Assembly (NCBI GenBank): GCA_036874045.1
Contig: CM072335.1
Coordinates: 17,256,001-17,320,000 of the forward strand
Reading direction: 5' to 3'
Source: Cymodocea nodosa
Taxonomy: Eukaryota > Streptophyta > Magnoliopsida > Alismatales > Cymodoceaceae
Length of the DNA stretch: 64,000 nucleotides
The position numbers and the translations under genes are program-made. Below are positions 8,195 to 59,479 of the stretch, in pieces. Below the pieces are notes generated by a model. The model saw only the letters and a program-made list of their open reading frames with translations, did no database searches and had not been told where the DNA came from. Numbering within the stretch: position 1 is the stretch's first letter; every line of letters starts with the position of its first letter.

Positions 8195-8524
8195 CTTCAG
8201 CTTGCATAACAAGTTCTTTGAAGCAAATTTTGTAGCAACCTTTGAGCTACGATCTATTGCAACATGATTTAATTGGCGATCCTTCATATCTACAATTACT
8301 TCCACCAAGAAAACATCCTTTTGCTTAACTGGCTCTAGAAATTTAAGACTAAAACCATATAACTGACAAAGTTCGTAGAGTTCTCGAATAGGGTTCATAG
8401 TAATGTTTGACAATCTTAAGACTGGTTCCAAGAGGATAAGCATTACTCTCCACACACATTTTAAGTCAAAACCTGAGTCAAGAAGTACAGCACCTATGCA
8501 AGATTCTATTATGTCTCCAAGCAC
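8195..8524 (-). CDS. DCL4: DCL4 exon: end of RNase IIIb and first dsRBD
   Basis: 330 nt, 110 codons (residues 867-976). It begins [19 protein letters not shown] with catalytic Asp870 and Glu873 of RNase IIIb, followed by [15 protein letters not shown] and the dsRNA-binding fold ending at [10 protein letters not shown]. Acceptor ggctttcag/GTGCTT. The donor is taken as CTGAAG/GTACTC because the frame beyond it ends within 12 codons and no longer resembles the family. DCL4 proteins continue with a second dsRBD; it is not recognisable in 1-8194, so the last visible intron is longer than 8.1 kb. Confidence 0.9.
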
Positions 8525-11500
8525 CTGAAAGCCAATATTAGTGTCAAAACATACCAAAATAAGTGAATAACATATATCATATGCAAGAAGGAAAAAATAC
8601 AAATGAAAATACAATTTTCATGAAGCTAAATACAAGTCCCCAAGAAGCTAAATTTTTATAATTTCTATAAGGAATGTTCCTATTTCAAAAATGCAGAAAG
8701 ACTAAAAAGGGCATTGTCATTGCTATGGTGTCCAAACTTCAACATGTGAGTCAAAGTTTTGGTAGCAGGTGTTAGAATCTCTTTTAGGAAAAACATCCAC
8801 CTGTATTTGGGTGGATGTCACATGCCATAGGAATTTTCAATGAAATCTTGGACCATGTTAGCATGTTGGTTTATGTTTGTGATTTTTTGTGAATGTGACC
8901 ACTGCAGCTCCACTTACCTTTAAATTGACGAGTTCTCCTCCCATTATGGTACTGCAGAAGCTAGTTTCCACTTCCCTTTTGCTTTCATGCGAAGCATCTT
9001 ACTGGAGTTGCTGAGACTTCATCAGTGCTGCATTTTCTTTGCTGGATTTGCCTCTATTTCTTGTCAACAAACTCCAATCAGCCATTGGATTGAAAACAAC
9101 ACCACACTCCAAGTTTGAATTTTTTTAAGTGCCTTGATTTAATTATTACCAATTTGTAGATTTTCATCATATTTTACTTTTTTTGTTGTTTTCATAGATT
9201 ACATGAATAGATCTAAGGTTTTTTTTATATATTTTCATAGTAAATTTTTATATTCTTCCTATTACAACAGATCTTTTGTGCAGATATGAAGATTATATGG
9301 ATAAAAATAATGTTTTTACTTTTTAATATATTATTGTACTGAATTTTTATTTTTTCCTATTCCAATAGATTTTTCAACATAATCAATGAAATTACAAATA
9401 AAATTATCTTTCCATGATTTCAAATTGCATCATGTCTTCATCAGACATGGATGGATCTCAAGGATCTGGTAGCGAAGATGAGGAAAGAGCTGACAAAGTC
9501 AGGACTATAGATGGATGCGTGGTTTTCTAATCAACAATAGGTAGCATAGAAAATGCTACTAATGTGCAAAGAAGACAATGAGCGGTGAAGTTATCAAGTT
9601 GAAGTGACATTTGACTCGTGAGTACAACAATGTTGCCAAGAGCTCAAAATGTTTTCATCTGGTTTGATGGCAGACGGGGAACTTAATAAAAGGGCAAAAA
9701 AGGAAGAAAGTACAATGAAAAAGCAAGATGAGAGAAATTTATAATTTTTAAAATTTCTCTGTTGGAACATAAGAAATAGGTAGAAGCAGAATTGTTATTT
9801 ATAAACAAACATAAAACCACTATTTCTAGAAAATAGAGACTATATAAAAAAGACAAAACATGCTGAAACAATATAGGACTAAACCGGCAATACACAAATA
9901 AACTAATATATCATTTGTTTTAATACTCCTTAAGCCGGAGCATTTAACTTGCAATAGACTTATACATAAAAAAGTGAAAATAAAATAAACAACGAGGTTT
10001 ATAACAAGAAGACATAATTAATAGTTTGTTGCGCAAGAAAAAAATGGTCAAACTCTAATTAACCATATTAAAGTAGGTGTAAACACTAATATGTTATTGG
10101 CATCATTAAAGTAGGTGAAAACATGTATTTCTCTATTTTTCATATAATATTGTATTTCCAATTGTTTTTCTACAATTTCATAAGAATATTTTTAATGTCA
10201 TAAGAGTCTAAAAACTAAATTTACTTAATTTCTAGAAGTATTATCTAGAAATTTGTACATAGTCTTGCACATTTTTTATGGACTTATGTTATTTAATTAA
10301 ACTTTCACAGACATTTCGATCAAAGTCTAGCATTTTTTTGTTGGATTGAAGTCCGATATGAAACTGAAGCTTCTCAACAAGCTACTTCGAAAAAAACTCA
10401 TCAAGGGAATGACCACAATTGCTATAGGCATTAACATAAAATCATAGATTGTGAGAATAAGTGACCACTAATTGCTTTTACAAAACAATGGACAACCAAC
10501 TAAAAGCTTATTGACAATTACAAGGCTAATAAATCGCAAAAATGAAAAATGATTTCATCAAATAGAAAGGGAAGCTAGGCTAGAGAGTAAACTCAGAAAG
10601 TGTTTAAAGGATTTTTATGTCAAGAATGAGATACCTTTGGATATGCTGGTTCAGGTACTAGGTCACTTTCTTCATCTGCTGTAACATGCCTTGCAAAAAT
10701 GTTGATTGTCTTGGTGAGGCATTCTGAATCATTTATAAGATATGTATGGAAGGATTGCCTCACAGCTACGTGTGCAAAGGAGCTATTGCTAAGAATAACA
10801 GCTTTCAGATCAGTTAATTGGCCTTGTTTGAACTCAGGAAAACTTGAGTACAGATAAGAAGTAACCAAGTATTCGAGTACAGCATCCCCAAGGAACTCCC
10901 CTCTCTGTCCAGGCAAAACATTATTATAAAGAAATTAAACATAAAAGACTCATAATTGAAACCTAAAATCTAATTAACAAAAGTTACAGAGATGAAGGAT
11001 GGACATCAAGTGAAAAAAGGTCATGAAGCATGAAAATTTGACTTTTGTCCAGAAAGAAAGATGAACAGACCTGATAACATCCTCCAGGATGTCTGGTATA
11101 TGATGGGTGGACGAATGCTTGCAGCAGCAGACCCTTATGCAGAAAATGATAATCTAACTTACTTTCAATAGTGCTAATGTCTATTTCATCTATAAGTGAC
11201 ATGTTGAGCTTGCTTTCTTCAAAAATTCTGTGCACATCACTGACCTCATAACTAACATTTATTTCAATCCATTTTAGGAATGCAATTGCAGCATTAAATC
11301 CACAATCAACGAGAAATGCTCCAACAAGAGCTTCTACTACATCAGCAATAGATTTCTTCTGTAACCAGCGGTGACCCTTACAGCATTTCATGCCAGAAGA
11401 TTCTTCTGCATAAACAATATCGCCTCTTTTGCTATGAGAATGCAACAATGTATCATGATCACAAATTACTCTGCATGGCCGACCAAGTGCAAAATAATTG

Positions 11501-14500
11501 GTTGGTTCAAACTCACCACGTATGTATACCTGAAACATAAAGAAAAATTGGTTTTACATTATTGAAAATGGAGAATAGATATAGTTGCAACTTGCAAACA
11601 AGTGATGTCCAAGTGATGACCTAACAGTGAATAAAATAAAGACTGATTTTATAGTGAAACTATTTGATGAATAATAGTCTCTTCTTACGTTCCAATATAA
11701 AGCCATATGTAATGTCCTGAATTTTTTATATGCAAGTGATAGTCAAAAAATTAAACAATAGGAGTCAATATTTTATGTCATGATTAAATCGTGGATGGTG
11801 TGGATTTGGGTAAAACTTAATTGAAATAATTAATTCTGTTATTCTATTAGAATCACCTTTTTTCTTCGACCAAAGATTTGTTTATTAACATCTATTTAAC
11901 CCATGATCACGATACTATCTAATTTCCAATAAATATTCTCCATCCACCACAAGTACTCAACAACCACAAATGCCTATGACACATTCCCACTTACCCTCTC
12001 CTAGGGCATCGAGATTCTCCCATCTTTTTCCACAGCCCACCTCTCATCACACACCACATGGGCTCTCCCACTAGCAAATCATTTCTCCCTACCACAATAT
12101 TTTTCCATCACCAGAAGCCCTTCAACTCTTGAACCTGGTGGTTGGTGGAGAAAGGATATTCATGGATGCTTAGTTCAGCCTAAGTTCATGGTTGTTAATC
12201 GCAAGGGTCAATCTACTGACAAGTACCATGATATTTCCTGAGCCCTCAGGATCGTCCCTTTCATTTCCCTCTCCTAAGTTCAGGAGTATGTTATTGGTGA
12301 GAAAGCCTATGATTGAAGAGAGAGAGAGAGAGAAAGAGGAGAGGAGTTAGGTGGTATATGTACAGTGACCTGTGTGTGGGTACTTGCAATACATCCTTCT
12401 CCTTTGTTTTAAAGAAGGGATTATTGCCAAATGTTTGACAAATTATCACAAAGGGGTAAGAAAATTGCCTTTTAGGCTGGTTGAATTTATCTATTATATT
12501 AGTGATTTAGCCATGTAATCCATGGTTATTTGTATGCCTTGGGTAAATAAAGACGTTGGGAGTACAAGGATGATGGGTGAAAACAACACAAAGAAATGGA
12601 GGTGTGAGATGACTCATCAAGACAGGTACAGATATTTCCATATGATCATGTTTAATATCCATCAATTAACTTGGGGATGAATTGTAAGAATAAACAGGCA
12701 AGACTTTCATTATCTTTGCACCTTGTATTATTGTAAGGCATTGATACTCTTGATTACCTAACTGGTGGTATAATTCAGTAATTAATAAATCAAATAGGAA
12801 GAAATGCTGTTTAATCAGATCCGTATATAGGGTCATAACATAGGAGATGATTGTTAGTTAATACCTCATGAGAATGGGAAATGTTGTAATGCACTTGATA
12901 TTTGTGTCAGCCAGAAAATTGTGCTTGGTTGCTCATTAATATGTTATCTATGGATACAACGAATAGTAATTATACATTCTTGAGATGTGATTGCCCAGCA
13001 CTTTTACAATGTTCTAGATCTATGAATTCATGGTTTCAATGTTATACTTGTTATTGCTTTTTTATTTTTTTAAACATCCCCATTCTATTAAGGGCCGGGG
13101 TCCCAAAAATGATAGATTACATAAGGGGGGATACCCAAAGCTATCAACCAAGAAAAGTAAGGATTTTACAAGAAATCCTACAACCAAAAAGGTCTCAGGC
13201 CACCCTGCAGCTGGGAATGTTCCACTGGTCGAGAAAAATGTCTTTTGGTTTTGCTAAGAAGCTCGGCAAAGTTCACAAAGATTTTTTTCATTTTCATTGA
13301 CCTGCCCTCTTTAGCTAGAGAATCTGCCACTCTATTTCCTTCTCTATAAATCCTTGTTATAGATAACACTTGGGAGGAAAGTTCCACTAGGCTATTCCAG
13401 AATCTAATGCATTTGATTCTAAGACATTGTCCATTTATAATCACTTGATATAGAAGTGCTGAATTAGTTTTCACCTCTACCTCAGAGAGCGTTAACCATT
13501 TCAATGCAAAAATATAGACCATCTCAAAGAGCTTGAGCTTTTGCCGTAAGGTAGTCTACTCCTCCATAGTAATTGTAAAAGGCCACAAAGAAAACTCCAA
13601 TGTGATTTCTAATGATGCCTCCACTTGACATGTGAGAAAAGTCATCTGCTTCATCCACATTAAGCTTCCATTATGCTTGCCTAGGTCTAGACCAAGCCAC
13701 CCATTTGATCACTTCCGACTAGGCACCTGTTGTGTATTCATGTCAAAAGCAATATGGAAGTTTTTGAAGATTTGTTTAACCCGTTCTTGGACAATTGTAA
13801 ATGAGGTTTCTTTGCTAGTATTGTTCATTTACAATTGCTTGGTATAGCAATGCCGAATCAATTTCCACCTCTACTTTGGAGAGCAATAACTGTTTTTTCA
13901 ATGCAAAGATGTAGACCATCTCAAAGAGCTCAAGCTTCTACTGTAAGGCAGTCAACTCCTCCATAGTGTAGAAGGCCACAAAGAAACCTCCAATGTGATT
14001 TCTAATGATGCCTCCTCCTAACGTTTAAGAAAAATGCCTCCTCCTAACGTTTAAGAAAAATGCCTCCTCCTAATGTGTGAGAAAAGTCATCTGCACCATC
14101 CACATTAAGCTTCCATCATCCTGACCTAGGTTTGGACCAAGCCACCTATCTGATCACTTCCACACTAGGTGTCTGTTGTGTATTCATGGTCAAAAGCAAT
14201 TGAGAAGTTTTTGAAGCTTTGTTTAACCTGATTTTAGACAACCATAAATGAGGTTTCTATGCTACCATGAATGTTATTACATCTTCCTTTCTAACATTTC
14301 CAAAGGAGGTTGGACACAAAGAATTTTCAAAATTTGTGATGAGCTCCCCTAGTATTAATGTGAAGTTCTTTGTAAACAATGGACTTTCACTCCTAGTTCT
14401 GAATGCCAAGATGGAAAAATTTATTGTACCAAAGCCTGCATAAGATTGCCTACTCTCCTAAGAACAAATGCTCAGCAAAGTCCACATCAACATGAAGTTT

Positions 14501-17500: not shown

Positions 17501-20500
17501 ATTTCCTCCTAGTACAATCTGTGCAATTTTTGAATTCAATTTCATAAAATAGGCCATACCTTAAGATGGATGAATCCTATTCAATTTCAACTCACATGGG
17601 TATAAATCTGTTGATCTGTATTTGTAATTGTATGGATGAACAATATGTTTTCCATGTCAGCATGGATGAATCCTGCTTAATCTTGTTATTGATGTATTTT
17701 TCATGTTGGCAAACATGAGGCTTTAAATTCATGAGGTCAAAATCTCCAAGAGTACTATGGGAATATGTGCACTCTATTTGAGGAGCTTGATGCTTATCAA
17801 TCTGCTACTATTGATCATATTGTTCTACGAAGATACAAGAATGACCTATAAGTTGCTACTTTTTTGTTAGGACTTCTTGTAGACTTAGCATCCCAAGTTC
17901 GAGGATAACTTTTAGCAATGAGATTACTCCAAATTTAGGGATTGCTTTTGTTGGTATGCTCCACATTTCAAAGGCAATCATACTAGAAACATAAGGCATC
18001 TCAACTCTACCTACTAGAGGCCAATCAAATAAGCGAGGTGGACGTACAAACTCCAACTTGAGGAAATAAAGAGTTCCTTACCCTCATTGTAGTAAGAAAA
18101 ATCACAAGTTGAAAAAGTGTTGGGATACATATAGAAAACCAATTTAAGCTCATGTTGTCATTGAGTCTACTAATTCTACAGGAGTTGTTGAAGCTTCTAC
18201 TTCAATTTCTAGACCTTAGACAATGACTATCTCACAAGTTGACTATAAGAGATTTTTGTAGTTGCAGGCATCTGACTCTATTACTACAATTACTTTGGCA
18301 TCCACCTTAGGTATGAGAATAGTTAACTATAATAGATTTTTGTAGTTATAAACATCTGACTCTATTACTATAGCTACTTTAGCATCCACCTTAAGGTCTG
18401 TTTGTACACCCAGAAAGTAATAGAAAGAAAATGTTGCAAAGTTACAGAAAGTGACAAAAAGGAAAGTTATAAAAAGTAATAGAAAATATAGGTGTTTATG
18501 CATAGTCTAGAAAGTAACTTAAATTGATGAAAATTAATAGAATGTAATAGAAAAATTTTGATTAGACCAAAGTCTCTGCTTGATCACTTCAAAATGAAGA
18601 TTTATTATATATATGTATTTCAGATCATTATATATATATATATGTAATAGAATGTATCATTTTATTTTAATCCAAAAATAATTTCTCTTTCAACTTTTCT
18701 GTTTATACTTTCATAAGTTTGTTCAAAATGATAAAATGATTTTTATGATTTATAATGATAAAATATGATTTTTATCATAAAATATGATTTTTATCATAAA
18801 ATATGATTTATGATGGTAAAATATGATTTTTAAGATAAAAGATGATAAAATATGATTGTTATAATAAAAGATAATAAAATATGATTTTTATAATTTATAA
18901 TGATAAAATATGATTTTTATGATTGATGATGGTAAAATATGATTTTTAAGATAAAATATGATTGTTATGATTTATGATGATAAAATATGATTTTTATGAT
19001 TTATGATCATAAAATATGATTTTTAAGATAAAAGATAATAAAATAGGATTTTTATGATTTATGATGATAAAATATGATTTTTATGATAACATATAATTTT
19101 TATGGTAAAAGATGATAAAATATGATTTCTATAATTTATGATAATAACATATGATTCATAAGAAAATTAAAAAAAAAAAAACTTTTATTCAACATATGGT
19201 GAGGATGAATTGTCACTTTCCAACTCTTTTACACCTCTCAAGGTCAAAAAGAATATAAGAAGAAAAATCTTTTCTAGGAAAGTTGGAGAGAAAAGTTTAT
19301 CAAATTTTCCTTTACTTTCCGTTGTACACAAACACTCTATAATTTCTCTCAACTTTCTATTACTTTCCTTTTCGTTTCTTTCTATCACTTTTCATCGTGT
19401 ATAAACCCTCCCTTAAGTATGAGAATGACTATGATAGCTAAAGATGATAGTCTATAGATGGCAAACTTAGGAGCATCATAACACATGACATGCTCTTATT
19501 CCCTTTTCTCCTATTTAAAACAACTTCCTAATTTTCACAATGTTACTATTGTTGATGACTGCTCATGTCAGATCTCTAGTAATAGGATTGTTCATGTCAC
19601 CTCTAGATTTCTACTTGAAAACACTCTCTATATGACCTCTTTCATTGTATCTTTTATGATTTATGGATAAAGATGAGAATTGATTTGGACTATAAGAGAA
19701 GCACTGAAGAATATATTCTAGTTCATGATATCCCTTCTCATGGTCTTGTTGCGTCATTGTCTTCTATTGTTGAGTCCTCACTTTTTTAACACCATTAGCT
19801 TAGACATTCATCCATAAAGAAACTTCATCAAACCTTGTCATGAGTCTCCATTTCAGATTTTGATTTTAAGTCATGTTAGCTAGGCAAACATACTAGATCA
19901 ACTTTTTTTCAAGTTTAGCTGACTACTAGTAGAATAATGTTTAAACTTATTCATTGTGATATCTAAGGACTAAGTCGTGTTGTGTTTATCAATATTTTTG
20001 TTACTATGTGTATCCATTCTTGTTGCTCTTTGGAAAAGTACCTACTCTTGCACTCAACATTCCATTACTCACTTTATTTCTTATAATCATTTGACCTCCT
20101 CTTATTGTGCTTTTACTATGGTTGTCTCTAAGTCTATTCTAAGAATATATCAAAAAACATTACAACTACCATATTGAAAAGAAGCTATGGATGTTAAGAT
20201 AAATGTCTTACGATCTCGTAGTATGTAGGAGTTAGTTGCTTGTCTTATAGATGCTAATGTAATTTCATGCAAGTGATTTTCACTATTAAATACAAGTCAG
20301 ATAGCTCTATTAATAGATATAAGGCTCACATTGTGGCTTAGACTTTACACAAAAGTATGACATTAATCATGATGAGACGTTCTCCTCAGTTGCTTGACTT
20401 AATGCTATTCGAGTTTTACCATCTCTTGTAGTTAATCAATAGTGACAGTTGCATCAACTTGATGACAAAAATGCATTTCTAAATGGAGATCTTTCTATGA

Positions 20501-50500: not shown

Positions 50501-53500
50501 TTGTGATGTAAATTGCTATCTGATTATCATAATTCATTGACATAGATAGTTGGACTTCCAACCCAAGCTCTTGAAGAAGAGACTACAACCAAATCATCTC
50601 ACATCCTATCTCCTATATAGAACGGTACTCTAATTCAACACTTGAACAGGAGACCACATTTTATTTTTTACTTCTTTAAGTAACAAGATTCCCACTGACA
50701 TAAGGCATCCTGAAGTACACTTCCTATCTCCTCTATCTCCAGCAAAACTAACATAAAAAAAAACTTACATGTAAGTGACCATTTGATCTATATAGAATAA
50801 CTTTTCCTAGAGTACCCTTGATGTAGGCCAAAACTCTTTGATCTCCTAACCAATGCACTTGTTGTGGCTGATGCATAAATTAACTCAGCAATCCAACACT
50901 ATACACGATTTCCAATCTTGTAATCATAAGGTAAATATGTTTCACTACAAGTCTTCTATACTATTAAGGATTTTCTAACTAAGGAGATGAAGTATCCTAA
51001 AAAGGTGGATTATGCTCAAAGGGCGTGCTCTCTAGTTTGCATCCTAGATAACATGTCTCTGCTAGAAGACCCAATGCGTATTTCCTCTAAGACATCACAA
51101 CTTTATCTTTTGAGTAAGAGAACTCAATGCCAAGGAAGTATCCTAGTCGTCTTAAGTCTTTTGTTTGGAACACATTAGCAAGATAATTTTTAGTTGTGGC
51201 AATTCCTTCAATATCACCTCTTATAAGTAGAATATCATCAATATACACTACAAGAATCACAGATCCCTTTTCAAATTATCGAATGAAGATAGAGTGTTCT
51301 ACAACACACTGACGAAACTCCCTTTGAACATAACTTGAGTAAACTTATCAAATCAGGCTCAAAGGCTCTATTTCAACTTGTTATTAATCATTTACTTTAT
51401 CTCTTTTGTTTGAGTCAATTCCATAGGATATCAGTGAGGTATTACTTTCTTTCACTACAAGGTAGCTATGAATGAAGAGATCTCTACTCTTCATGATCAT
51501 GGCATATAAGATCTTGTTTCCCACCCTACAAATACTCAAGCAGTCAATTGCCATTAGGTATAAATAGTTTGATAATATAATTGAATGGTATAAGGCATGT
51601 CTTATTACCCCATGGCTTCACTCAAGTTTATAAATTGTATTATGCTGAAACATTCTCCCTTGTCGCTCAACTTAATTCTATTTCTATTATTTTCTTTAAA
51701 GCTATTAATCAAAATTGAAAATTACATCAATTGGATATGAAGAATGTTTTTGTATATGGTGACTTATATGAACATGTTATAAAGCAATCTCTTGGGTACG
51801 TTACTCAAGGGGAGAATGTGGTATATCATCTTAAGAAAGCTATATATAGTCTAAATCAAAGCCCAAGAGTATGGTTTAAGAAATTTAGCTAAATTATTAC
51901 CAAGGGTGGATTCAAAAGTTATGTCAAATTACTCTATTTTTCTAAAGACTACTAGAATTAGCACAATCATTATTGTAGTCTACATGGATAATATTCTGAT
52001 TACAGGAAGCAATCCTCTTACTATAGCAGCAGCAAAGAAGCATATCTAGGTACATTTTGTTATAAAGGACCTTGAAAAGTTTATCATTTCCTTAGCATTG
52101 AGTTTACTTATACTAAAGGGGATACACTTTTGACTCAAAGGAAATATGCACTAGATATTCTACAAGAAATTGGTCTCTTAAGCTGTAAACTTGAAAAAAC
52201 TTCAATTAAACAAAATCCTCCCTTTGGGATAATTCTACAAAGTTAATGGAAGATCCCAATTGATATAGGAAGCTAGTTAGCAATTAATATATCCTACTAT
52301 AACTCAACTTGACAAGCCTCAAGAAGTTGTTGGTGTAGTGTTTTACAAGTACTTGCATATCTTAAAAAGGCACTTGGTAGAAGTATAGTTTACTCTATAC
52401 ATGGTCATTTAAAGAATCAAGCCCATTTAGACTCTAGTGATGCTAGTGATTGGATAGATTGTAAATCAACCTTTGGATACTATACATATATTGGTAGTAA
52501 CCTTATCACATAGAGAGAAGCAAGAAACAAAATGTTGTCTCAAAATTTAGTATTGAGGTTGAATACAAATCAATGTCTGAAATTGCTAGTAACCTCATAT
52601 GGATAAAAAATCTTCTTACCGAACTACAGTTACCACCAGTTCAAGTACTTATGAAGACATATTGTGATAATCAAATAGCTATTTACATTACTCAAAATTC
52701 TATTTTTTATGAACAAATAAAACATATCAAAATGGATTGTCATTATATTTATGACTTGATAATCAAAGATGTTATATCTACATCCTTATACTAGATCTTC
52801 AGAAGAGACAGCTGATATATTCACCAAATGTCTTAGTGTGGGTCTTTTTGAATGTCATAGTAACAAGTTAGGTATGATAGATATATTTGTTCTAACTTAA
52901 GGGAGAGTGTTGAGTTGTTATATTATTATGTCAAGGGCAACATTGTCTTTTCCATGTAACCCTAATGTGTTGGTCTCTTATGAATAAAAGAAAAAGAAAA
53001 AGCACCAATGGACAGGTCAAGTTGACGGTTTTTCCTCCTCCACCTTCATCTCCTCTCTTCCACTCGATTCCACTCATCTAACTTATAACAAACTCAAAAA
53101 TAACTCAACAAACTTAGATATAGTAGATACACAAAGAGATAAAAATCAATTGTTGCAGCAATAGTAACAATAAAAACAGTAATAGTTGTAACAAAAGTAG
53201 GAAAAACAAGCTGTCATAATTGTTGTAGCAGAAGTAACAACAAGAGTAATCTAAGATAAATCTTAAAAATACTATATCTCGAATAGTAGTAGAATAACCA
53301 TCAGATAATATAATCCAATGTAGTAAAACAAATAGACTGTTGAAGTTTGACTTTTTAGGTAAGGGTGGTGGTGAAAATGAGAGGAAGAAGGGAACAGATG
53401 TTTTGAAAATGTTGCATTCCACACACTTAACTTTTTAACCAGACAGAACACATAAATATATAGTCATAGACATGTAACTGATTGACAACTGGTCAAGGTC

Positions 53501-56500
53501 ATGGACACATTCTTGACCATAACTGCCACATTATGCACACAACCGTGCATATTACATATTTTAACTTAATTTAAAACATATGGCATAAATTCATAACATA
53601 AAAAGGCATATAACATACAAAAAAATATAAGATATAAAGTCACTAAAGCATATTTCAACACTCCCTTTGCTTTAGAAACTTTGAACCCCCAATTTACTCC
53701 TCAGTATGTGAAGACATTCATAAGGAAGTGACTTGGTGAACATATCAACAAGCTGATGCTCTGATCTGCAGTAAACCAAATTAATTTCACCTGAATTCTG
53801 CATTTCACGCAAGGCATAAAGTTTGATATTAAAATGTTTTGTTCTGCCGTGAAATACTGGATTATGAGAAATAGCTATGGCAGTTTGGTTGTCTATAAAG
53901 ATTTCTGTAGCATTCTTGGTATCCAGGTGCAGATCAGTCAAAATTCCCGGTTGGTTTGATTGTTGAGTCATAAATAGATGTTCCTCTCCTTGAGCAACAT
54001 CAGTTTGCTGTTGTTGTTGAGGCTGTTCCCTTTTCTGATCCCTTTTTTGTCCCCTTTTGCAAACTTTAGCTTCATGCCCTTGTTGCTTACAATTTGTGCA
54101 TGAAGCTTCTGGACACCACCAACACTTCCATGGTGGGTGACCAGTGTTTGCAAGGTGGGTATTTTTTTCCTTGACTGGACTCACCCTGTTTTGATTTTCT
54201 GGTAGAAGACTCTGAGTTTTCTTCACTCTGTTTTCAGCTTTCTTTTTTCCTTTCCAATCTCTAGTTGATTTGCTGACCATCGCACCTTCAGTAACAGTTC
54301 CTTGATGCATCTCTCTTCTCTGTACCTGAGATTGAAGTGCACTGATCAGTTTAGCCAAGGTAAGTTTTCCAAGGTCTTTGGTGTTCTCCAATGCTGCTAT
54401 AGATGACTCATATTTTTCTGATACAGAGACCAGAATCTTTTCCATGATTCTTCCATCAGAAAAATCATTACCTAGCAAATATATTTTGTTTGCTATGGAG
54501 AGAAGTTGTGAAGAATAATCTTTAATAGAATCCAAATCCTTCATGCGAAGAAGTTCAAATTCCCTCATCAAATTCAAGCTTTTCATGCTTTTAATCCTCT
54601 CATCTCCATCATATTCTTCTTGCAAATACTGCCAGACAGCATATGCAGAAGGTAATCTCATAATTCTGGTGAAAATGGTAGGGGAAACAACAGTAAATAG
54701 GGTTGCCTTTGCTCTGGCCTTCATAGTCTTTTTTTCCTTGTGAGCCTTCAACTGTGCCATTGTTGGATTTGCCGGCAAAGGATGCATTTCATAGTCTTCT
54801 TCAACAGCCTCCCACGCATCAATGGCTTCCAAGTAGGCTTTCATCTTTATTGCCCAATGTTGGTAGCCATCACCATCAAATGATGGTGGAGAGAGTTGAT
54901 TAAAACCAGTTTCTGACACCATTCCAGGATTGTTTCAGAAGTATATGTTAAAGAATCAGCCCTGCTCTGATACTAGATGTTGAAGTTTGAATTTTAGGTG
55001 AGGGTAGTGGTGAAAATGAGAGGAAGAAGGGAACAGATGTTTTGAAAATGTTGCATTCCACACACTTAACTTTTTAACCGGACAGAACACATACATATAT
55101 GGTCATAGACATGTAACTACTTGACAACTGGTCAAGGTCGTGGACACGTTCTTAACCATAACTGCCACATTATGCACACAACCGTGCATATTACATATTT
55201 TAACTTAATTTAAAACATACGGCATAAACTCATAACATAAAAAGGCATATTACATATAAAGTCACTAAAGCATATTTCAACATAGACAAAGGTAGTTTAT
55301 CCTCAGAAAGCAAGATGTGATCTACCCCCAAATTTTTTGTTTTTGTGAATTTTTCATCCTTTTTTATATAGTTCCATCATTTCTACCTTTTTTAACCAAA
55401 TTTTTTCCTTTTTTCTTTCATTGTTTTTCTTCTTTTTTCTTTCTCATTTTTTCCTCTGTTTTTTTTTTCCTTTTCATTGTCTTTCTTTTCCTTTCTCTTT
55501 TCTTTTCTTTTCTTTTCTTCTTTCTTTTATTTTCTTTCCTTTCTTTTCTCCTTCCCATTTGTCTACAACTTGTTCATCTCCCCCTTTGCAACCCTAATAA
55601 GTGTAGGTGGCAATGAACACAGCACAATCTCTCAACCTACAACTCTCATGGTGGCATGTAGCACAAGTGCATACTAGTAATAGAAAAGTTTGACTCTCCC
55701 CATCTCTCAACTAACGACTCTCATGGTGTTGAGGGTGCAGTGACCTCTCCCCAACCTGTGATGATGCTTTATCAAGATTGAGTAGACAACCTCCCTTTGG
55801 GATTGACAGGAACAAGTACTATGTGAGAGTGGTCAACAATTGGAGAGGGGGAAAACGTACGTGAAGTTGGTGACGAGAGAGAGGCCCAAACACAAGAGGA
55901 GAGACATCGATGGTGGCTTGATTGGGGAGGATAACTAGTGGTGGTGGTGGCACTTAAATATAGGTTGATGATGATAATGGTTATAAGGAAAGTGATGACT
56001 AGGGTTTTCCTCTTACTTACCTAGATCTCTTATACTTTTTGGACTCTTAAAACCTCTATTCTAGTACCATGTGAGAACATAAAAGGCAAAAAATGAATGA
56101 TTTCATAAGTAAACATAAAACTTATATACATAGAAGCTACACAAAAAAGACAAATACAACCTAAACAATATGGGACTAAACCTACACATAACCTTTAACC
56201 CTAATAAATTAATATTCTCTAACAATAAAGTCTGAAATGGGTTTGCACTCTCTTTTCTCTTTTGAATCTGCTGATTGTGTTTCAAATATCAATGTATGTT
56301 TGAAAAGAGGGGGTTTGGTTAAAATTAAGTTTCATTTGTATGCAATATGTTACTCAGTTTATCAGCTCATACTGAATGTTGTGCTTTTTTCAACAACAAT
56401 CTAATACATCTCACCAAGATAGTTATATTTCCATTACAATAGCATTGACTATGCAAGGCACAACTTTAGTGCTTGTATACTCATATGCCTTTGCATCCCC

Positions 56501-58370
56501 AAAACAATGCAGTCACCACTCAAGAACAGCCAAGCATAAGAAGAACAACCAAAAAATACTCTACGGGGATTTATTCATCATGCCAATGCTAGGTTCACTC
56601 CATCTTTTTATTACAATCAAATAAAATACTGATAAGAATGAAGTAATTTATTTGGAATAGCATAGAGAGAAAATATTGAACAAAACTTACTTGTTTTTAT
56701 AATAATCTGCATAGCTCAAATTCCTTTTACTTTTTCTTTTCATTTTGTCATTTGCACAGGTCCCACAGAAAATACCATCAAGAAAGTAAAATATGTTATG
56801 CCAAGATGAAAAGACCAAGCTATTCATAACATCCCTCTTAAGAACAGGACCATTGGCAAGTATTAAAATTTCTGAAGGATCACTGACAGGAAAATCTCCA
56901 CCTAAAGAATCCTCTTGATGTGAAAAGGCAGGTGATGACAAACACACTTTCAAAGTCTCCCAATCAATACCCATATACATGGGATGTTGCTTTATGCAAA
57001 TGGGAAGCAACAAGTAAAAGGTTGAGGAATCTGAAATTGAAGGTTCAGACTTTCCCAGGGGAATGAAATCATACCTGAACTCTGATCTATCCAGGATTAT
57101 TTTAAGAGACATTTCCTGGAACTTTTGTGCAAGAATAATCTGCCACAAAGTACCATGTCATACAAGGTCAATAAACAACAGCAACCATCCATATAAATTA
57201 CTGTGTACCTCCTCTGTATTAAACGTCACAGTACCAGAAGGTACCAGAGTGGCTTTGACAATTCTACCATGAGCAAGATGAAGATCAACCTCCATTATTT
57301 CAACTTCTTTAGGAAGAGATACCTTGACAAGCAAACCAAATTTTCGATATTCTCTGTCCTCAGGAATGGGAACAAATTTTATATGATATAAGTGCAAAGT
57401 GACTTGATTCTCAAGAATCGACCATGGTACTTTAAGTACATCAGCAATGATAATTTCATGTATTTCTTTTCTATTGACATCTGGGAATGGGAAAAAAGAT
57501 ATACATTCATCAAGATAGAATGTAACATCACAAAGGAAATGAAAATTATTAAGACATACCTTTGACATGTACAAAGTTGGAAGTCTCAGCTCTAGGTTTT
57601 TCTGTATCACCACCTGATTTAGGTAGAAGATAGTCACTCAAAGCACCCAGATCATGTAGCTTAGCACATGCTTTAAGACAGGCAGCTCGTTTAGCTTCAA
57701 CTTTGGAACGAGATGGAAGACTGTCAACCTGGCGGATAGGACAATTAGAAGGAAGAATTATTCTACAAATTGTCCCACTTGGGTCATCTATGTAGAAAAC
57801 CTTTGGTGCAGGAGTAAAATATCTGCAAAGAACCAACATTTAAAATAAGTCATGTGCATTGGACAAAAATGTACTGAAAAATGCATGCTCAATGGTAATG
57901 CTCAGAGTTGGAGGACGTACTGATCATGGGGAAGCTTGGAACAGTAATGACAAAGAAGTGAAACACTACAGCCAGTACTAATAGATGCACCAGTAGATTC
58001 AACACGAAAAGATGTTTCTTCCTGGCAATCAAATATCTCATTGGATGTTCTCTCAATAATTTCCTTATTCATCACATCTTCACAGCATTGAAATTCATTA
58101 ATTAAATTTTCTTCACCTGGGTTACCCCTGACATGTTGGTTAGAATAAGCATCACTAAAAGGTAAAATTGAATATTAAAGATGCTAAAGATATTATAAAC
58201 AGGAAATACCTCTCAACAAGAAAGACATATTCAGATTTTAACATTCGTGCCCGTCCCCTGGATTGTATAAAACTGGAAACTGTTTCTGGTAGGTCAAACC
58301 TTATAACAAGGCAGCAAGTAGGAATGTCAAGCCCTTCCTCAGCTACATTAGTTGCAATTAGAAGATTAAC
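8195..58370 (-). CDS. DCL4: DICER-LIKE 4, partial: 11 exons, helicase C end to first dsRBD
   Basis: Plant Dicer-like ribonuclease. DCL4 cuts long dsRNA into 21-nt siRNAs (tasiRNA, antiviral and inverted-repeat pathways) in the nucleus, with DRB4 as usual partner. Exons in gene order: 58370-58210, 58127-57921, 57822-57560, 57480-57209, 57139-56691, 45868-45768, 23328-23123, 23027-22818, 11529-11071, 10904-10635, 8524-8195. All junctions are GT-AG and all phases agree, giving 976 codons without a stop. Domains by residue of this partial product: helicase C 1-60, DUF283 124-205, platform 212-300, PAZ 302-484, RNase IIIa about 490-720, RNase IIIb about 740-890, dsRBD1 910-976. All eight catalytic acids are present (E573/D577/D686/E689 and E779/D783/D870/E873). 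DCL4 is chosen over DCL1/2/3 because recalled Arabidopsis DCL4 matches best in the linker ([15 protein letters not shown]), the platform (DLHLAH) and the helicase (EEGLDI-TCCLVIR). Introns are 82, 98, 79, 69, 10822, 22439, 95, 11288, 166 and 2110 bp. Both ends of the gene lie outside the window. Confidence 0.93.
8525..9430. other. DCL4 intron, nothing recognised
   Basis: Right half of the 2110-bp intron is described separately. This part holds T-rich non-coding sequence with loose repeats of tttttcatag / tattcttcctatt at 9160-9370. Confidence 0.5.
9430..9680 (+). mobile_element. hAT transposase fragment (BED zinc finger-like)
   Basis: In one plus frame the sequence reads [17 protein letters not shown], then [19 protein letters not shown]. 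This follows the CxxC...LKxHL...C layout of the BED zinc finger at the N-terminus of plant hAT transposases. An acidic [12 protein letters not shown] stretch precedes it. Interrupted by stops; no TIRs found. Confidence 0.42.
9760..9925 (-). repeat. dispersed LTR-like repeat, copy 1
   Basis: About 165 bp starting tgttggaaca. It shares tttataaacaaacataa, gactatataaaaaagac and caatataggactaaacc with copies at 24731-24895 and 56070-56224. Ends and size suggest a short LTR or a TRIM-type terminal repeat. Confidence 0.5.
9926..10634. other. DCL4 intron, nothing recognised
   Basis: AT-rich non-coding remainder of the 2110-bp intron between the exons ending at 10635 and starting at 8524. Confidence 0.5.
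10635..10904 (-). CDS. DCL4: DCL4 exon: RNase IIIb signature
   Basis: 270 nt, 90 codons (residues 777-866). The signature reads [13 protein letters not shown] where DCL4 relatives read [13 protein letters not shown]: catalytic Glu779 and Asp783 are kept, but the first Leu is Gly (codon GGG) at residue 778. Then [20 protein letters not shown] and an acidic loop ending PEPAYPK. Acceptor cctggacag/AGAGGG, donor CCAAAG/GTATCT. The frame is open and the splice sites are good, so I read this as a real substitution in an otherwise sound exon. Confidence 0.9.
11071..11529 (-). CDS. DCL4: DCL4 exon: RNase IIIa second half and start of RNase IIIb
   Basis: 459 nt, 153 codons (residues 624-776). It begins [19 protein letters not shown] and carries [20 protein letters not shown] with catalytic Asp686 and Glu689 of RNase IIIa. 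It then starts the second RNase III domain with [20 protein letters not shown] and ends GGCYQ. Acceptor tatgtttcag/GTATAC, donor TATCAG/GTCTGT, a somewhat weak +3/+4 context. Confidence 0.93.
11530..13054. other. start of 11.3-kb DCL4 intron, nothing recognised
   Basis: Mostly non-coding. It contains a short (ga)n run at about 12317-12333 and a C-rich stretch at 11970-12130, without a family I recognise. Confidence 0.45.
13055..14300 (-). mobile_element. plant L1-type LINE 3' end, RNase H-like domain, internally duplicated
   Basis: Minus strand. An RVT_3/RNase H-like domain of plant L1 ORF2 is seen: start of fold KLNVDEADD, middle [14 protein letters not shown], end [20 protein letters not shown]. 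An A-rich tail follows at 13075-13055 in the LINE direction. The 5' part of the domain is present twice in tandem (13430-13835 and 13836-14260, about 410 bp each). A 26-bp unit, tgcctcctcctaacgtttaa plus 6 bases, is repeated about three times at 14008-14080. The fragment is truncated and disrupted. Confidence 0.65.
14301..15130. other. intron sequence, possible further LINE remains
   Basis: 14300-14760 may continue the LINE on the minus strand ([19 protein letters not shown] is open) but I cannot assign a domain. 14840-15000 has G-runs and no recognised family. Confidence 0.35.
15130..16290 (+). mobile_element. Ty1/copia RT fragment
   Basis: Plus strand. The linker before RT ([13 protein letters not shown]) leads to RT blocks [20 protein letters not shown] and [12 protein letters not shown], then [15 protein letters not shown] and [14 protein letters not shown]. 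Broken several times; no LTRs seen. Antisense to DCL4. Confidence 0.75.
16380..17060 (+). mobile_element. L1-type LINE ORF1 fragment (DUF4283 / CCHC)
   Basis: In shifting plus frames the sequence gives [20 protein letters not shown], then a [16 protein letters not shown] block like the DUF4283 fold, and [20 protein letters not shown], a CxxCxxxxHxxxxH zinc-knuckle relic. This arrangement is typical of plant L1 ORF1 proteins. Broken by frameshifts. Confidence 0.5.
17061..17690. other. intron stretch, nothing recognised
   Basis: No domain recognised on either strand; part of it may be leader sequence of the Copia element that follows. Confidence 0.4.
18394..19412. mobile_element. 1-kb PIF/Harbinger-like non-autonomous element with AT minisatellite
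   Basis: Flanked by TTA at 18391-18393 and 19413-19415. Ends are imperfect inverted repeats: AGGTCTGTTTGTACAC at the left against GGGAGGGTTTATACAC read inward from the right, both followed by GAAAGT(A/G)ATAGAAAGAAA-type sequence. An older copy of the surrounding sequence at 18295-18318 shows what the empty site looked like. No transposase is present. The core (18733-19160) is an AT minisatellite. The 3-bp TTA duplication suggests PIF/Harbinger, but a longer TTAAG duplication is also possible. Confidence 0.6.
18733..19160. repeat. AT minisatellite, unit about gataaaatatgatttttat
   Basis: At least a dozen imperfect units of (g)ataaaatatgatttttatgatttatgat in direct orientation, variable in length (about 19-30 bp). 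A short (ta)n run at 18606-18650 precedes it. Confidence 0.85.
21850..22640 (-). mobile_element. Ty3/gypsy RT fragment
   Basis: Minus strand. RT blocks [45 protein letters not shown] and [12 protein letters not shown] appear in the gypsy order. Broken, no LTRs. It directly abuts the 3' LTR of the Copia element on its left and ends about 170 bp from a DCL4 exon. Confidence 0.75.
22818..23027 (-). CDS. DCL4: DCL4 exon: RNase IIIa signature
   Basis: 210 nt, 70 codons, both ends in phase 0 (residues 554-623). It contains the RNase III signature [15 protein letters not shown] with catalytic Glu573 and Asp577, then [20 protein letters not shown]. Acceptor attttttag/ATTCTT, donor CTACAG/GTAAGA. It is separated from the previous exon by only 95 bp but from the next by an 11.3-kb intron. 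Confidence 0.93.
23123..23328 (-). CDS. DCL4: DCL4 exon: connector helix and start of RNase IIIa
   Basis: 206 nt encoding residues 485-553. It encodes [19 protein letters not shown], then [20 protein letters not shown] and [20 protein letters not shown]. The [15 protein letters not shown] run is the best single marker for DCL4 in the window. Acceptor tgtccaagcag/AGGTTC, donor CTACGT/GTAAGA. A plus-strand Copia fragment begins only about 75-80 bp upstream of this acceptor. Confidence 0.93.
23405..24320 (+). mobile_element. Ty1/copia RT-RNase H fragment
   Basis: Plus strand. [20 protein letters not shown] then VDDLLL of [14 protein letters not shown]-like and [15 protein letters not shown] blocks, then RNase H remains to about 24320. 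Broken several times. Its left end lies within about 80 bp of the DCL4 acceptor at 23329. Confidence 0.72.
24321..24730. other. possible leader of LTR-like repeat copy 2, with (ga)n run
   Basis: No protein recognised. A (ga)n run lies at about 24618-24635. The stretch 24660-24730 resembles 55985-56069 (gggtttt-c-c..., actcttaaaacct-like blocks), so both probably belong to one element family together with the LTR-like repeats to their right. Confidence 0.4.
24731..24895 (-). repeat. dispersed LTR-like repeat, copy 2
   Basis: About 165 bp starting tgttgaaaca, with tttataaacaaacataa and gactacataaaaaagat blocks shared with 9760-9925 and 56070-56224. Immediately to the left, read on the minus strand, is AGGTATTAAGG, a weak match to a primer-binding site. 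Confidence 0.55.
24896..25589. other. intron stretch, nothing recognised
   Basis: A 70-codon open frame on the minus strand (25140-24928) has no domain I recognise and is not placed by any splice logic of DCL4. Confidence 0.4.
25590..30000 (-). mobile_element. Ty1/copia element with 722-bp minisatellite-bearing LTR
   Basis: Minus strand. Gag remains (about 29930-29300), GAG-pre-integrase (LYLTSEQDD..., [15 protein letters not shown], near 29190-28900), integrase (to about 28300), RT ([20 protein letters not shown] at about 27070) and RNase H (to 26330). A 3' LTR follows at 26311-25590, TGTTAGG...TTCAACA. No 5' LTR recognised. Broken many times. In sense with DCL4. Confidence 0.75.
25850..26240. 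repeat. about 125-bp tandem repeat inside a Copia LTR
   Basis: Three to four imperfect units containing aaaccttccaaagagctttt, actttcggata, ggtgaaacc and ctctctagtgcctttgactc in the same order. It lies inside the LTR at 25590-26311; a shorter duplicate (ggtgaaacctttcagatacc) is embedded near 25905-25935. Confidence 0.85.
30001..30291. other. stretch between two Copia elements, probably leader of the left one
   Basis: No domain recognised. It ends at the GTGAT duplication that borders the next element. Confidence 0.4.
30395..30524 (-). repeat. 3' LTR of middle Copia element
   Basis: 130 bp, TGTTAAGTGTC...CTTCTACT on the minus strand, preceded by purine tract AACTTAAGAGGGAG. Confidence 0.8.
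31128..31255 (-). repeat. 3' LTR of inner Copia element
   Basis: 128 bp, TGTTATATGG...TTCTAGCA on the minus strand, preceded by purine tract AGCTTGAGGAGGAC. It contains two to three direct copies of tgttatatggatctta(a/g). Confidence 0.82.
35436..35720 (-). other. poly-C/poly-G leader of inner Copia element
   Basis: Between the primer-binding site and gag. The plus strand carries runs of 8-10 G at 35643-35653 and 35673-35681 and several shorter runs to 35710, so the element's sense strand is C-rich. The family copy at 63520-63660 has the same design. No reading frame is implied; the frames seen opposite it are antisense artefacts. Confidence 0.7.
35733..35863 (-). repeat. 5' LTR of inner Copia element, with TATA motif
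   Basis: 131 bp, TGTTATATGG...TTCTAACA on the minus strand. TATAAATA at 35795-35788 is a plausible core promoter, as LTR promoters of this kind usually carry one. Confidence 0.82.
37385..39465 (+). mobile_element. Ty3/gypsy Tat/Athila-like LTR remnant inside the middle Copia element
   Basis: About 2.1 kb without coding capacity. Its right end carries ttccctgtaggatcgacct at 39196 and, 210 bp on, caagttttctggtgtcgtgc. These resemble the end-of-LTR and primer-binding region (TTTTGGCGCCGTTGCCGGGG) typical of plant Tat/Athila elements. No gag or pol follows. Boundaries are approximate, set by where the host Copia zinc-knuckle region stops and resumes. Confidence 0.45.
40200..40700 (-). repeat. 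GC-rich, repetitive leader of middle Copia element
   Basis: 40200-40440 holds several copies of ccaagggagct and ggagctactgct. 40480-40690 is GC-rich with repeats of catccatgggga / agcac.gtcc. Long frames are open on both strands only because stops are rare in GC-rich sequence; none resembles a protein. Confidence 0.65.
40706..40847 (-). repeat. 5' LTR of middle Copia element
   Basis: 142 bp, the same sequence with a longer (aag)n run near its end. TTTTATATACTT on the minus strand around 40785-40774 is a possible TATA region. Confidence 0.8.
41359..41706 (-). mobile_element. Ty1/copia 3' end (RNase H tail and LTR piece)
   Basis: Minus strand. [20 protein letters not shown] and [14 protein letters not shown] of the RNase H tail are followed, leftward, by a purine-tract/LTR-like junction at about 41467. 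Lies inside the outer Copia element of the nest. Confidence 0.65.
41707..43860 (+). mobile_element. SIRE/Maximus-like Copia integrase-RT fragment
   Basis: Plus strand. Integrase end ([20 protein letters not shown]), a long spacer, then [40 protein letters not shown] and [19 protein letters not shown]. The [13 protein letters not shown] run is typical of SIRE/Maximus elements. 43400-43860 is non-coding and may include LTR sequence. Old and broken. Confidence 0.65.
45263..45767. other. intron between Copia nest and the lone DCL4 exon
   Basis: Non-coding. It contains a TATA-like ctttatatatagagctctt on the minus strand (about 45345-45327). The long frame at 45760-45440 minus starts in the exon's downstream intron and shows no domain. 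Confidence 0.5.
45768..45868 (-). CDS. DCL4: DCL4 exon: short PAZ-to-connector exon
   Basis: 101-nt exon with no long open frame around it, found by following the gene's phase. AA from the previous exon plus G completes Lys, then [19 protein letters not shown] and [14 protein letters not shown], leaving one base that completes Glu in the next exon. Arabidopsis DCL4 has the same block (YGVELKHPAQPLL...[10 protein letters not shown]) at exactly this place. Acceptor cctttgttag/GTACAAC, donor AATACAG/GTACTT. It is flanked by introns of 10822 and 22439 bp; the 3' end of a Copia element lies about 510 bp to its left. Confidence 0.9.
45869..46589. other. intron upstream of the lone DCL4 exon, nothing recognised
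   Basis: AT-rich non-coding sequence with a short (ga)n run at about 46312-46322. Confidence 0.5.
46590..46900 (+). mobile_element. L1-type LINE RT fragment
   Basis: Plus strand. [40 protein letters not shown], then, after a frame change, [20 protein letters not shown]. This is the conserved 'SV-INGSP-GFF-PSRGLRQGDPLSPYLFI' segment of plant L1 reverse transcriptases. 46901-47150 is unassigned. Confidence 0.7.
47150..49600 (-). mobile_element. Ty3/gypsy remnant (gag end, protease region, RT)
   Basis: Minus strand. A zinc-knuckle region near 49500, gag/protease linker (49262-49041), RT primer region (near 48330-48110) and RT core [20 protein letters not shown] at about 47990, then connection to RNase H near 47400. 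Broken throughout, no LTR found. Confidence 0.7.
49601..50129. other. intron stretch, nothing recognised
   Basis: No domain or repeat recognised; possibly the 5' part of the gypsy remnant on its left. Confidence 0.4.
50130..51380 (-). mobile_element. Ty1/copia 3' half (RT, RNase H, LTR)
   Basis: Minus strand. RT ([13 protein letters not shown] near 51230; [15 protein letters not shown] near 51060) and RNase H remains run to a purine tract AACTTGAGGGGAAG at about 50300, then a probable LTR to about 50130. It meets a plus-strand Copia fragment near 51380. Confidence 0.7.
51381..53090 (+). mobile_element. Ty1/copia 3' half with 183-bp LTR
   Basis: Plus strand. RT ([14 protein letters not shown], then [28 protein letters not shown]) and RNase H ([36 protein letters not shown]) precede the purine tract taagggagag and a 3' LTR at 52908-53090 (TGTTGAGTTG...TTATAACA). 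Broken several times. Head-to-head with the element on its left. Confidence 0.75.
53091..53332. other. spacer with loose gtaacaa repeats
   Basis: Non-coding, with repeated (a)gtaacaa(t/c)aa and ttgtagcagaagtaac motifs. Confidence 0.4.
53338..53660 (-). repeat. 3' LTR of the LTR-gag-LTR element
   Basis: 323 bp, TGTTGAAATATG...CTTCAACA on the minus strand, preceded by purine tract AAAGCAAAGGGAG. Confidence 0.9.
54978..55282 (-). repeat. 5' LTR of the LTR-gag-LTR element
   Basis: 305 bp, near-identical to the 3' LTR; the length difference comes mainly from one 18-bp gap. Confidence 0.9.
55318..55560. repeat. polypyrimidine tract (plus strand)
   Basis: Almost uninterrupted T/C with tttctttt and ttccttt motifs, densest at 55440-55550. 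In the DCL4 pre-mRNA it would appear as a polypurine tract. Phe-rich frames here are artefacts. Confidence 0.85.
55561..56069. other. probable leader of LTR-like repeat copy 3
   Basis: No domain recognised. It contains two partly repeated blocks ending in caac...cgactctcatggtg (55636-55650 and 55707-55723). The segment next to 56069 resembles 24660-24730. CATGGTACTAGAATAG on the minus strand at about 56071-56056 is a possible, poor primer-binding site. Confidence 0.4.
56070..56224 (-). repeat. dispersed LTR-like repeat, copy 3
   Basis: 155 bp from tgtgagaaca to ctctaaca. It shares taaacataaaact, gctacacaaaaaagaca and caatatgggactaaacc with copies 1 and 2. Confidence 0.55.
56225..56690. other. 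DCL4 intron next to the PAZ exon
   Basis: Non-coding; no element recognised. Contains the donor side (GTAAGTTTT) of the 10.8-kb intron. Confidence 0.5.
56691..57139 (-). CDS. DCL4: DCL4 exon: PAZ domain
   Basis: 449 nt encoding residues 302-450, the bulk of the PAZ domain that anchors the 3' end of dsRNA. Blocks seen: [59 protein letters not shown] and ADYYKNK. They follow the DCL4 order (STFYLLLP, then the DW-T-CLSSP block, then KNSLVF). Acceptor gtggcag/ATTATT, donor AAACAA/GTAAGT. The following intron is 10.8 kb and filled with retrotransposons. Confidence 0.93.
57209..57480 (-). CDS. DCL4: DCL4 exon: platform domain
   Basis: 272 nt encoding residues 211-301, ending on a codon boundary. 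It corresponds to the segment between DUF283 and PAZ. Recognisable blocks are [20 protein letters not shown] and [15 protein letters not shown]; the DLHLAH block matches Arabidopsis DCL4. The acceptor is a strong polypyrimidine tract (ttttttcccattcccag) and the donor is GAGGAG/GTACAC. Confidence 0.92.
57560..57822 (-). CDS. DCL4: DCL4 exon: Dicer dimerisation domain (DUF283)
   Basis: 263 nt encoding residues 123-210. It contains the whole DUF283 fold, which in plants binds dsRBD partner proteins: [13 protein letters not shown], then [11 protein letters not shown], then [20 protein letters not shown] and YLLP. The run GTICR-ILPSN is typical of DCL4; DCL2 has a TCTLYLPKSC-type sequence at this place. 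Acceptor tctttgcag/ATATTT, donor TCAAAG/GTATGT. Confidence 0.93.
57921..58127 (-). CDS. DCL4: DCL4 exon: helicase end to DUF283 linker
   Basis: 207 nt, entered in phase 2 (AG+G gives Arg) and left with CA of a Gln codon. It encodes an acidic linker and then [15 protein letters not shown], the conserved segment just before the dimerisation domain in plant Dicers. Acceptor catgtcag/GGGTAAC, donor GATCA/GTACGT. The 82-bp and 98-bp introns on either side show that this end of the gene has kept its compact ancestral layout. Confidence 0.92.
58210..58370 (-). CDS. DCL4: DCL4 exon: helicase motifs V and VI
   Basis: 161 nt encoding residues 1-53 plus two bases of the next codon. It carries helicase C-terminal motif V ([14 protein letters not shown]) and motif VI (QSRGRAR, residues 36-42, with the arginines expected to contact ATP). 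The acceptor is ccatggcag before GTTAAT and the donor is GAGAG/GTATTT. The preceding exon, which should end in the 'SMSR...F' stretch of the DCL4 helicase, is not found up to 64000, so the intron upstream of this exon is at least 5.6 kb. An ATG six codons upstream in the same frame lies in the intron and is not a start. Confidence 0.92.
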
Positions 58371-59470: not shown

Positions 59471-59479
59471 TCTCAAAAC

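Follow-up and report, generated by a model that had tools for sequence, protein, structure and literature searches.

A DCL4 gene with long retroelement-rich introns in Cymodocea nodosa

In other plants, DCL4 genes are listed with lengths of 11,740 bp (sweet orange, PMC7751981), 14,559 bp (banana, PMC8412350) and 17,484 bp (sunflower, PMC10256174), while potato DCL4 occupies 32.7 kb by the table coordinates of a report whose text says 42,980 (PMC12885295). The DCL4 gene of Cymodocea nodosa extends over approximately 115 kb, compared with 11.7–32.7 kb for these listed genes, and the titles and abstract openings of the literature searched contained no DCL4 of comparable length. The gene has 24 introns, the number also given for DCL4 of Arabidopsis (PMC12885295) and sunflower (PMC10256174), numbers rather than positions being compared; sweet orange DCL4 is listed with 25 introns and banana DCL4 with 18 (PMC7751981, PMC8412350). 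The predicted protein has 1,627 amino acids; those of sweet orange and sunflower are listed with 1,601 and 1,620. Its domain order is identical to that of Arabidopsis DCL4 (AtDCL4, PDB 9kby/9kbz), whereas a leucine in the RNase IIIb domain of AtDCL4 is replaced here by glycine.

Long retrotransposon-rich introns are already known in plants, and this DCL4 is an extreme example. Published accounts give 23 genes of Sapria with introns above 100 kb (PMC10246380) and 876 of 2,184 Chloranthus orthologues above 20 kb, the corresponding counts being 2 for rice and zero for Arabidopsis (PMC8626473). As in the genes of Sapria, Chloranthus and gymnosperms, the length arises by intron growth, LTR elements being reported as the main contributor in Chloranthus (PMC10246380, PMC8626473). 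The longest Arabidopsis intron is given as approximately 11 kb and it was suggested that lengths above 20 kb may be beyond capacity (PMC5364540), whereas one intron here measures 22.4 kb. Unlike in Sapria, Chloranthus and gymnosperms, the gene lies in a genome of 374.6 Mb (28 contigs) in which the sampled gaps within kinesin genes were mostly short. The genomes of Sapria, Chloranthus and gymnosperms are larger than this one.

Parallels also exist among silencing systems. IBM1 is likewise linked to silencing, and long introns occur among its orthologues, an intron of the T. cacao orthologue being given as 27.2 kb (PMC11265718); IBM1 acts in histone demethylation, whereas DCL4 acts in siRNA production. 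The target genes described for IBM2 (rice, Arabidopsis) and EDM2 (Arabidopsis) resemble this locus in carrying repeats or inserts in their introns, and both proteins are reported to stop transcripts from ending in silenced introns (PMC7145194, PMC5364540). In maize, Mu killer has been proposed to form a hairpin of approximately 4 kb by read-through from a flanking gene (PMC3440606).

Gene structure and identity

The window, a stretch of 64,000 nucleotides corresponding to C1:17256001-17320000, contains the middle part of the DCL4 gene. The eleven exons of the original prediction were rebuilt from the sequence, all on the minus strand between positions 58370 and 8195 (Table 1). The ten introns between them all had the GT-AG borders claimed, the joined exons gave the predicted unbroken frame of 976 codons without a stop, and the intron lengths of 10.8, 22.4 and 11.3 kb and of 69–98 bp were right on re-measuring. 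In order the introns measured 82, 98, 79, 69, 10822, 22439, 95, 11288, 166 and 2110 bp, those of 166 and 2110 bp having been absent from the prediction.

The gene had been proposed to cover at least 50 kb; it is long as stated, but this figure was an underestimate, since the model extended past both window ends when the flanking sequence beyond the window was searched with paralogue frames and DCL4 fragments. The full model contains 25 exons on the minus strand, beginning with an ATG at C1:17368414 and with its stop codon ending at C1:17253840, a span of 114,575 bp of which 4,884 bases (4.26%) are exonic, coding for 1,627 codons and the stop. All 24 introns were GT-AG and comprised 14 short introns (69–293 bp), two middle-sized introns (1,140 and 2,110 bp) and eight long introns above 6 kb (6,062, 9,188, 10,725, 10,822, 11,288, 16,948, 17,062 and 22,439 bp). 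Exon 22 was ruled out as the end of the gene by three further exons downstream. The start codon is predicted as the first ATG in exon 1, and the weakest exon call is exon 9, which was placed through phase and weak similarity and whose acceptor has no close pyrimidine tract. The length of 114,575 bp is provisional, as 5,000 bases in one of the long introns beyond the window are unread; minus these bases the span is 109,575 bp.

The claimed identity as DCL4 was borne out by the full protein, which scored 1445 bits to AtDCL4 compared with 689 to DCL1 and 517 to DCL3. A phmmer search of the PDB aligned the 976-codon frame over its whole length with residues 541-1519 of 9kby_A (Arabidopsis DCL4) at an E value of 1e-288, which excludes chance, and residues 442-1417 gave 48.8% identity to AtDCL4 over 987 columns. 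Exon 20 alone scored 170 bits with DCL4, compared with 58 and 56 for other DCLs. Pfam analysis of the 976-codon frame revealed Helicase_C, Dicer_dimer, PAZ and two Ribonuclease_3 stretches; in the full protein the domains were in order and above the Pfam cut-offs, with one dsrm stretch at 1545-1616, the first dsRBD being seen by alignment to AtDCL4 only.

Table 1. Coordinates of exons, introns and intronic elements of the DCL4 locus, in window numbering.
Feature	Position	Strand	Remarks
Intron 11, window part	58371..64000	-	10,725 bp in full, runs on to C1:17325095
DCL4 exon 12/25, helicase C part	58210..58370	-	
DCL4 exon 13	57921..58127	-	
DCL4 exon 14, most of Dicer dimerisation domain	57560..57822	-	
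DCL4 exon 15	57209..57480	-	
DCL4 exon 16, PAZ region start	56691..57139	-	
Intron 16, 10,822 bp	45869..56690	-	22.9% of bases matched by 8 Pfam-confirmed retroelement frames
DCL4 exon 17, PAZ	45768..45868	-	
Intron 17, 22,439 bp, longest	23329..45767	-	36.1% of bases matched by 8 retroelement frames
DCL4 exon 18	23123..23328	-	
DCL4 exon 19, RNase IIIa first catalytic pair	22818..23027	-	
Intron 19, 11,288 bp	11530..22817	-	18.8% of bases matched by 8 retroelement frames, antisense
DCL4 exon 20, RNase IIIa second catalytic pair and RNase IIIb start	11071..11529	-	
DCL4 exon 21, RNase IIIb first pair	10635..10904	-	RGEFLGD in place of RLEFLGD
Intron 21, 2,110 bp	8525..10634	-	0 retroelement frame matches
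DCL4 exon 22, RNase IIIb second pair and first dsRBD	8195..8524	-	
Intron 22, window part	1..8194	-	9,188 bp in full, runs on to C1:17255007
Short Copia-type element, intron 16	53333..55282	-	LTR-like pair 53333-53660 / 54974-55282, K80 0.0495 (294 sites)
Outer repeat pair, intron 17	30395-30524 / 40718-40847	.	95.4% identical, K80 0.048 (130 sites)
Near-complete 4.7-kb Copia element, intron 17	31128..35868	-	Sense to gene
Copia copy, 4.4 kb, intron 11	63416-67844 (in window 63416..64000)	+	Antisense to gene

The genome contained four Dicer_dimer loci, the DCL4 gene among them. The paralogue exon on C6 preferred DCL3 (174 bits, compared with 65 for DCL4), while that of the other paralogue on C1 had no preference (46, 42 and 40 bits) and would be DCL2 by exclusion. 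DCL2 identity for the DCL4 gene itself was rejected on the bit scores and the separate C1 paralogue; no DCL2 structure was among the PDB matches, so DCL2 was excluded only through that paralogue, together with resemblance. The original prediction had raised the case of another intact DCL4 copy; the assembly was searched and a second copy was rejected, neither half of the protein giving another near-identical match among the hits scored (28 and 17, own exons included).

Between their outermost matches the DCL2-like gene measured approximately 38 kb (C1:27200795-27238472), the DCL3-like gene approximately 23 kb (C6:714691-737657) and the DCL1-like gene approximately 17 kb (C3:4281353-4298422). 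Within the DCL2-like gene a gap of approximately 27 kb between detected helicase matches contained Copia-like sequence. Among Argonaute (PAZ/Piwi) loci, two match sets on the same strand of C5 (C5:1484441-1487811 and C5:1506719-1510189), approximately 22 kb apart, had equal hit spans and near-equal scores, resembling a tandem duplication. The loci C2:28302180-28303995 and C21:1970539-1972438 carried PAZ and almost the entire Piwi domain in long uninterrupted frames, unlike the other Argonaute loci, which were exon-split.

Retroelements and length of the introns

The long introns had been described as filled by retrotransposons, and this agreed with a Pfam test of ten intron frames, eight being the longest read frames found in the long introns and two being further frames from intron 17. 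Retroelement families (Copia gag, integrase or SH3, Pol_BBD, RVT_2 and RVT_1) were matched over the cut-off by eight of the ten; one gave a match below the cut-off and one had no match. The eight confirmed frames matched 29,665 of the 99,534 read bases (approximately 30%) of the eight long introns, or 23,269 bases without the query frames themselves, with 8.0–49.2% matched per intron, and matched none of the 4,884 exon bases or the 3,250 bases of the two middle-sized introns. Because coding similarity alone was counted, the total element content is probably higher. These frames revealed no overall orientation bias, with 15,224 bases sense and 14,441 bases antisense to the gene.

Genome searches with four pieces of intron sequence from the window, each scoring approximately the best 40 candidates, showed all four to be repeated. 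Among the matches scored, the first stretch had no other above 85% and its 80–85% matches were all shorter than 320 bp, the second had no other above 80%, and the third had two others at 93% and 97%. The fourth had at least 39 other copies at 86–94%, these being the best of 709 loose candidates.

The short Copia-type element of intron 16 contains a gag open frame (53672-54934, Retrotran_gag_2) between its LTR-like pair. In intron 17 the outer repeat pair (30395..40847) encloses the 4.7-kb Copia element, which is bounded by LTRs at 31128-31260 and 35733-35868 (K80 0.066, 127 sites) and contains integrase (33028-34017) and gag (34884-35411) frames identified by Pfam. Two LTRs flanking gag and integrase in Copia order place this element in Ty1/Copia, and its RNase H-like frame gave no Pfam match over the cut-off. 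Intron 17 also contains an imperfect tandem repeat (25845-26176), in which a unit of approximately 95-97 bp occurs three to four times, and a two-copy 104-nt repeat with a spacing of 136 bp and 73% identity (37695-37934).

The intron lengths were compared with gaps between neighbouring kinesin-motor matches, using 146 of 147 rows and the 42 of 45 groups with at least two matches. The 101 gaps had a median of 149 bp; 16 exceeded 1 kb and three exceeded 5 kb, compared with eight of the 24 DCL4 introns above 5 kb (Fisher p 7e-5), a comparison made after the fact between a gene picked for its length and gaps that are not exact introns. The longest gap, 21.8 kb, lay inside the motor domain of a kinesin gene at C1:19511860-19534733; its position 2.2 Mb from DCL4 on the same contig fits a regional cause.

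Probable coding constraint and RNase III sites

The gene had been considered still functional on the grounds that so long a gene would otherwise have been broken quickly. Function is likely from the sequence, but this argument is weak because long introns are not a coding target, and a better one is given by the frame that stayed open during LTR divergence. The three LTR-like pairs in the DCL4 introns gave K80 values of 0.048, 0.066 and 0.0495, corresponding to approximately 1.8–4.7 million years if rates between 7e-9 and 1.3e-8 per site per year are assumed; these date three insertions, most of the intron fill being without a datable pair. At K 0.05 the neutral expectation is 122 substitutions and 4.85 stops, and the probability of no stop is 0.008, or 0.0007 when survival of the 48 splice dinucleotides is also required. 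This rough calculation takes the LTR pairs as genuine and the exons as neutral, and it is distinct from dN/dS. The open frame despite the intronic LTR divergence argues for constraint on the DCL4 coding sequence.

The acids of both RNase III sites, predicted to be kept, were found in alignment, but the signature of RNase IIIb has changed. The RNase III signature has a leucine preceding E-F-L-G-D, and the residue at this place, before the first metal-binding glutamate of RNase IIIb, is glycine (YQRGEFLGD). The same place is leucine in all three plant DCL structures aligned (AtDCL4, DCL1 and DCL3) and in all three paralogues from the same genome. The AtDCL4 chain in the PDB itself has Asn or Gln at four of the RNase III acidic places. 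In RNase IIIa of the DCL1-like gene the corresponding residue is alanine, indicating that the signature place tolerates change; the leucine is not defining for DCL4 as such, and the catalytic acids are retained. The glycine may lower activity or be a local sequence error.

These observations bear on whether the gene might be recently dead or weakened, with a frame that is open for want of time and little full-length active enzyme produced because of the long introns and the RNase IIIb change. The conserved leucine lost here and the drop of expression reported for Chloranthus at intron lengths above 40 kb (PMC8626473) are in keeping with such decay, which is nevertheless distinctly unlikely: the 1,627 codons contain no stop and the 48 splice dinucleotides are intact beside LTR pairs at K about 0.05-0.07, the catalytic acids are kept, the altered place is variable as judged from the alanine of the DCL1-like protein, and no other DCL4 was among the scored hits. 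It is extremely unlikely that the structure is partly an assembly artefact and the true gene shorter. The order and distance at the unread run come from scaffolding, but the other seven long introns contain no unread bases, the 25 exons agree in order, strand and phase, and an element of the 22-kb intron retains its two LTRs, with its coding parts correctly ordered.

Predicted transcription of the introns and opposite Copia copies

The locus is very probably a full-length host gene, the sole DCL4 found in the assembly, in which Copia-type and other retroelements, inserting repeatedly, have expanded eight of the introns of a 25-exon gene to 6-22 kb, and the whole 115 kb would be transcribed and spliced for ordinary DCL4 action. 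The gene structure, domains and element content were observed directly, and no second copy was found; from these we infer transcription, splicing, a silenced state of the introns and enzyme activity. RNA polymerase II would most likely transcribe the entire 115 kb and the normal spliceosome would remove the long introns, with machinery of the IBM2/EDM2 type probably letting transcripts pass the silenced intronic elements. The DCL4 protein would then cut long double-stranded RNA into 21-nt siRNAs, like other DCL4. The growth of the introns is most simply viewed as neutral accumulation in a repeat-dense region. The account as a whole is also favoured by the CpG o/e just before the ATG, 0.96 compared with 0.27 for the long introns, by the 21.8-kb kinesin gap 2.2 Mb away and by the enlargement of DCL2 and DCL3. 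The gene provides a natural setting in which to ask how a plant with a small genome transcribes and splices one silencing gene across repeat-filled introns of 22 kb.

The intronic elements could also have a regulatory effect, full-length DCL4 mRNA being made only while they are silenced, so that the output of the gene tracks genome silencing. IBM1 provides the model for such a sensor, as it is described as controlled by methylation of its own intron and has orthologues with long methylated introns (PMC11265718). The excess of introns above 5 kb over the kinesin gaps agrees with this reading, although that comparison was post hoc on a gene chosen for its length and the DCL2 and DCL3 genes are also enlarged. 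Base composition gave a divided result. CWG o/e was lowest in the long introns (0.76 pooled, 0.51-1.01 each, with four of the eight at 0.51-0.69), compared with 1.36 in exons, 1.23 in short introns and 1.01 and 0.95 in the flanks, in favour of the sensor. For CpG o/e the long introns gave 0.27, exons 0.43, short introns 0.36, the two flanks 0.53 and 0.49 and the 1 kb before the ATG 0.96. The difference between short and long introns was not significant (12.75% of 2,000 draws), and the depletion is not peculiar to the long introns, reaching 0.17 in intron 8, where no element matched, and 0.25 in the pooled middle-sized introns. The CpG depletion gives no clear reading on intron methylation and is partly against it, and it may precede insertion. 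A silencing sensor is held to be very improbable.

The original prediction also remarked that this silencing gene must be transcribed through many of its own targets. Copia copies in opposite orientation were indeed found in introns 11 and 17, making self-pairing conceivable, but similar pairs were present upstream of the gene as well. The intron 11 copy lies mostly outside the window and is opposite to the Copia element of intron 17; its LTRs differ at 5 of 95 aligned sites. The two copies share 93.6% identity across 2,191 bp and 91.6% across 1,998 bp, together approximately 4.2 kb at 92-94%, with inner ends 27.5 kb apart. Among the 4,409 21-nt windows of the intron 11 copy, 955 are the exact complement of the intron 17 copy in the DCL4 transcript. 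In the 194 kb compared, a further four pairs in opposite orientation reached 1 kb and 85% identity or more, all upstream of the gene, and the chance of such a pair in an equal stretch is approximately 0.10, assuming that all 709 loose candidates are copies. The intron 11/17 pair is thus ordinary, as opposite pairs are in repeat-dense DNA.

The DCL4 pre-mRNA could nevertheless pair with itself. Antisense Copia RNA from intron 11 would pair with sense RNA from intron 17, within the transcript or between excised introns, and the resulting siRNAs would target the Copia family, the introns or DCL4 itself, much as Mu killer acts on MuDR in maize. The similarity and exact complementarity of the copies, the at least 39 further family members at 86-94% and the hairpin of similar size proposed for Mu killer (PMC3440606) all point towards such pairing. 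The arms are far apart, however, and intron 11 may be spliced out ahead of intron 17 synthesis, in which case no pairing in one molecule would occur; slow splicing, or pairing between excised introns, would allow the duplex. With the approximately one-in-ten chance above and the four upstream pairs also to be considered, siRNA production by this route is very unlikely.

A stronger form would have DCL4 carry its own trigger, the 4.2-kb duplex serving as a Dicer substrate at each burst of expression, silencing the Copia family and the introns of the gene and feeding back on DCL4 output. This is quite improbable; if true, it would represent a Mu-killer-like device built into the gene of a Dicer enzyme. 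A Mu-killer-like role of the pair is conceivable. Both consist of an opposite pair of element sequence of approximately 4 kb that could be transcribed from a gene promoter, going by the description of Mu killer (PMC3440606). Unlike Mu killer, a known silencer of MuDR, the pair here consists of Copia copies 27.5 kb apart in two introns. A literature search for intronic hairpins returned nothing relevant. The gene is also a natural case for asking if opposite-facing elements make a Dicer gene a source of its own substrate, and the opposite Copia pair is the feature that makes a direct small-RNA test worthwhile.

Upstream of DCL4, C1:17380082-17387616 contains an opposite-strand repeat pair of approximately 3.6 kb and 94.9% identity with little in between. 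Within the intron 11 Copia copy, several long G runs are present on the minus strand at window positions 63500-63660.
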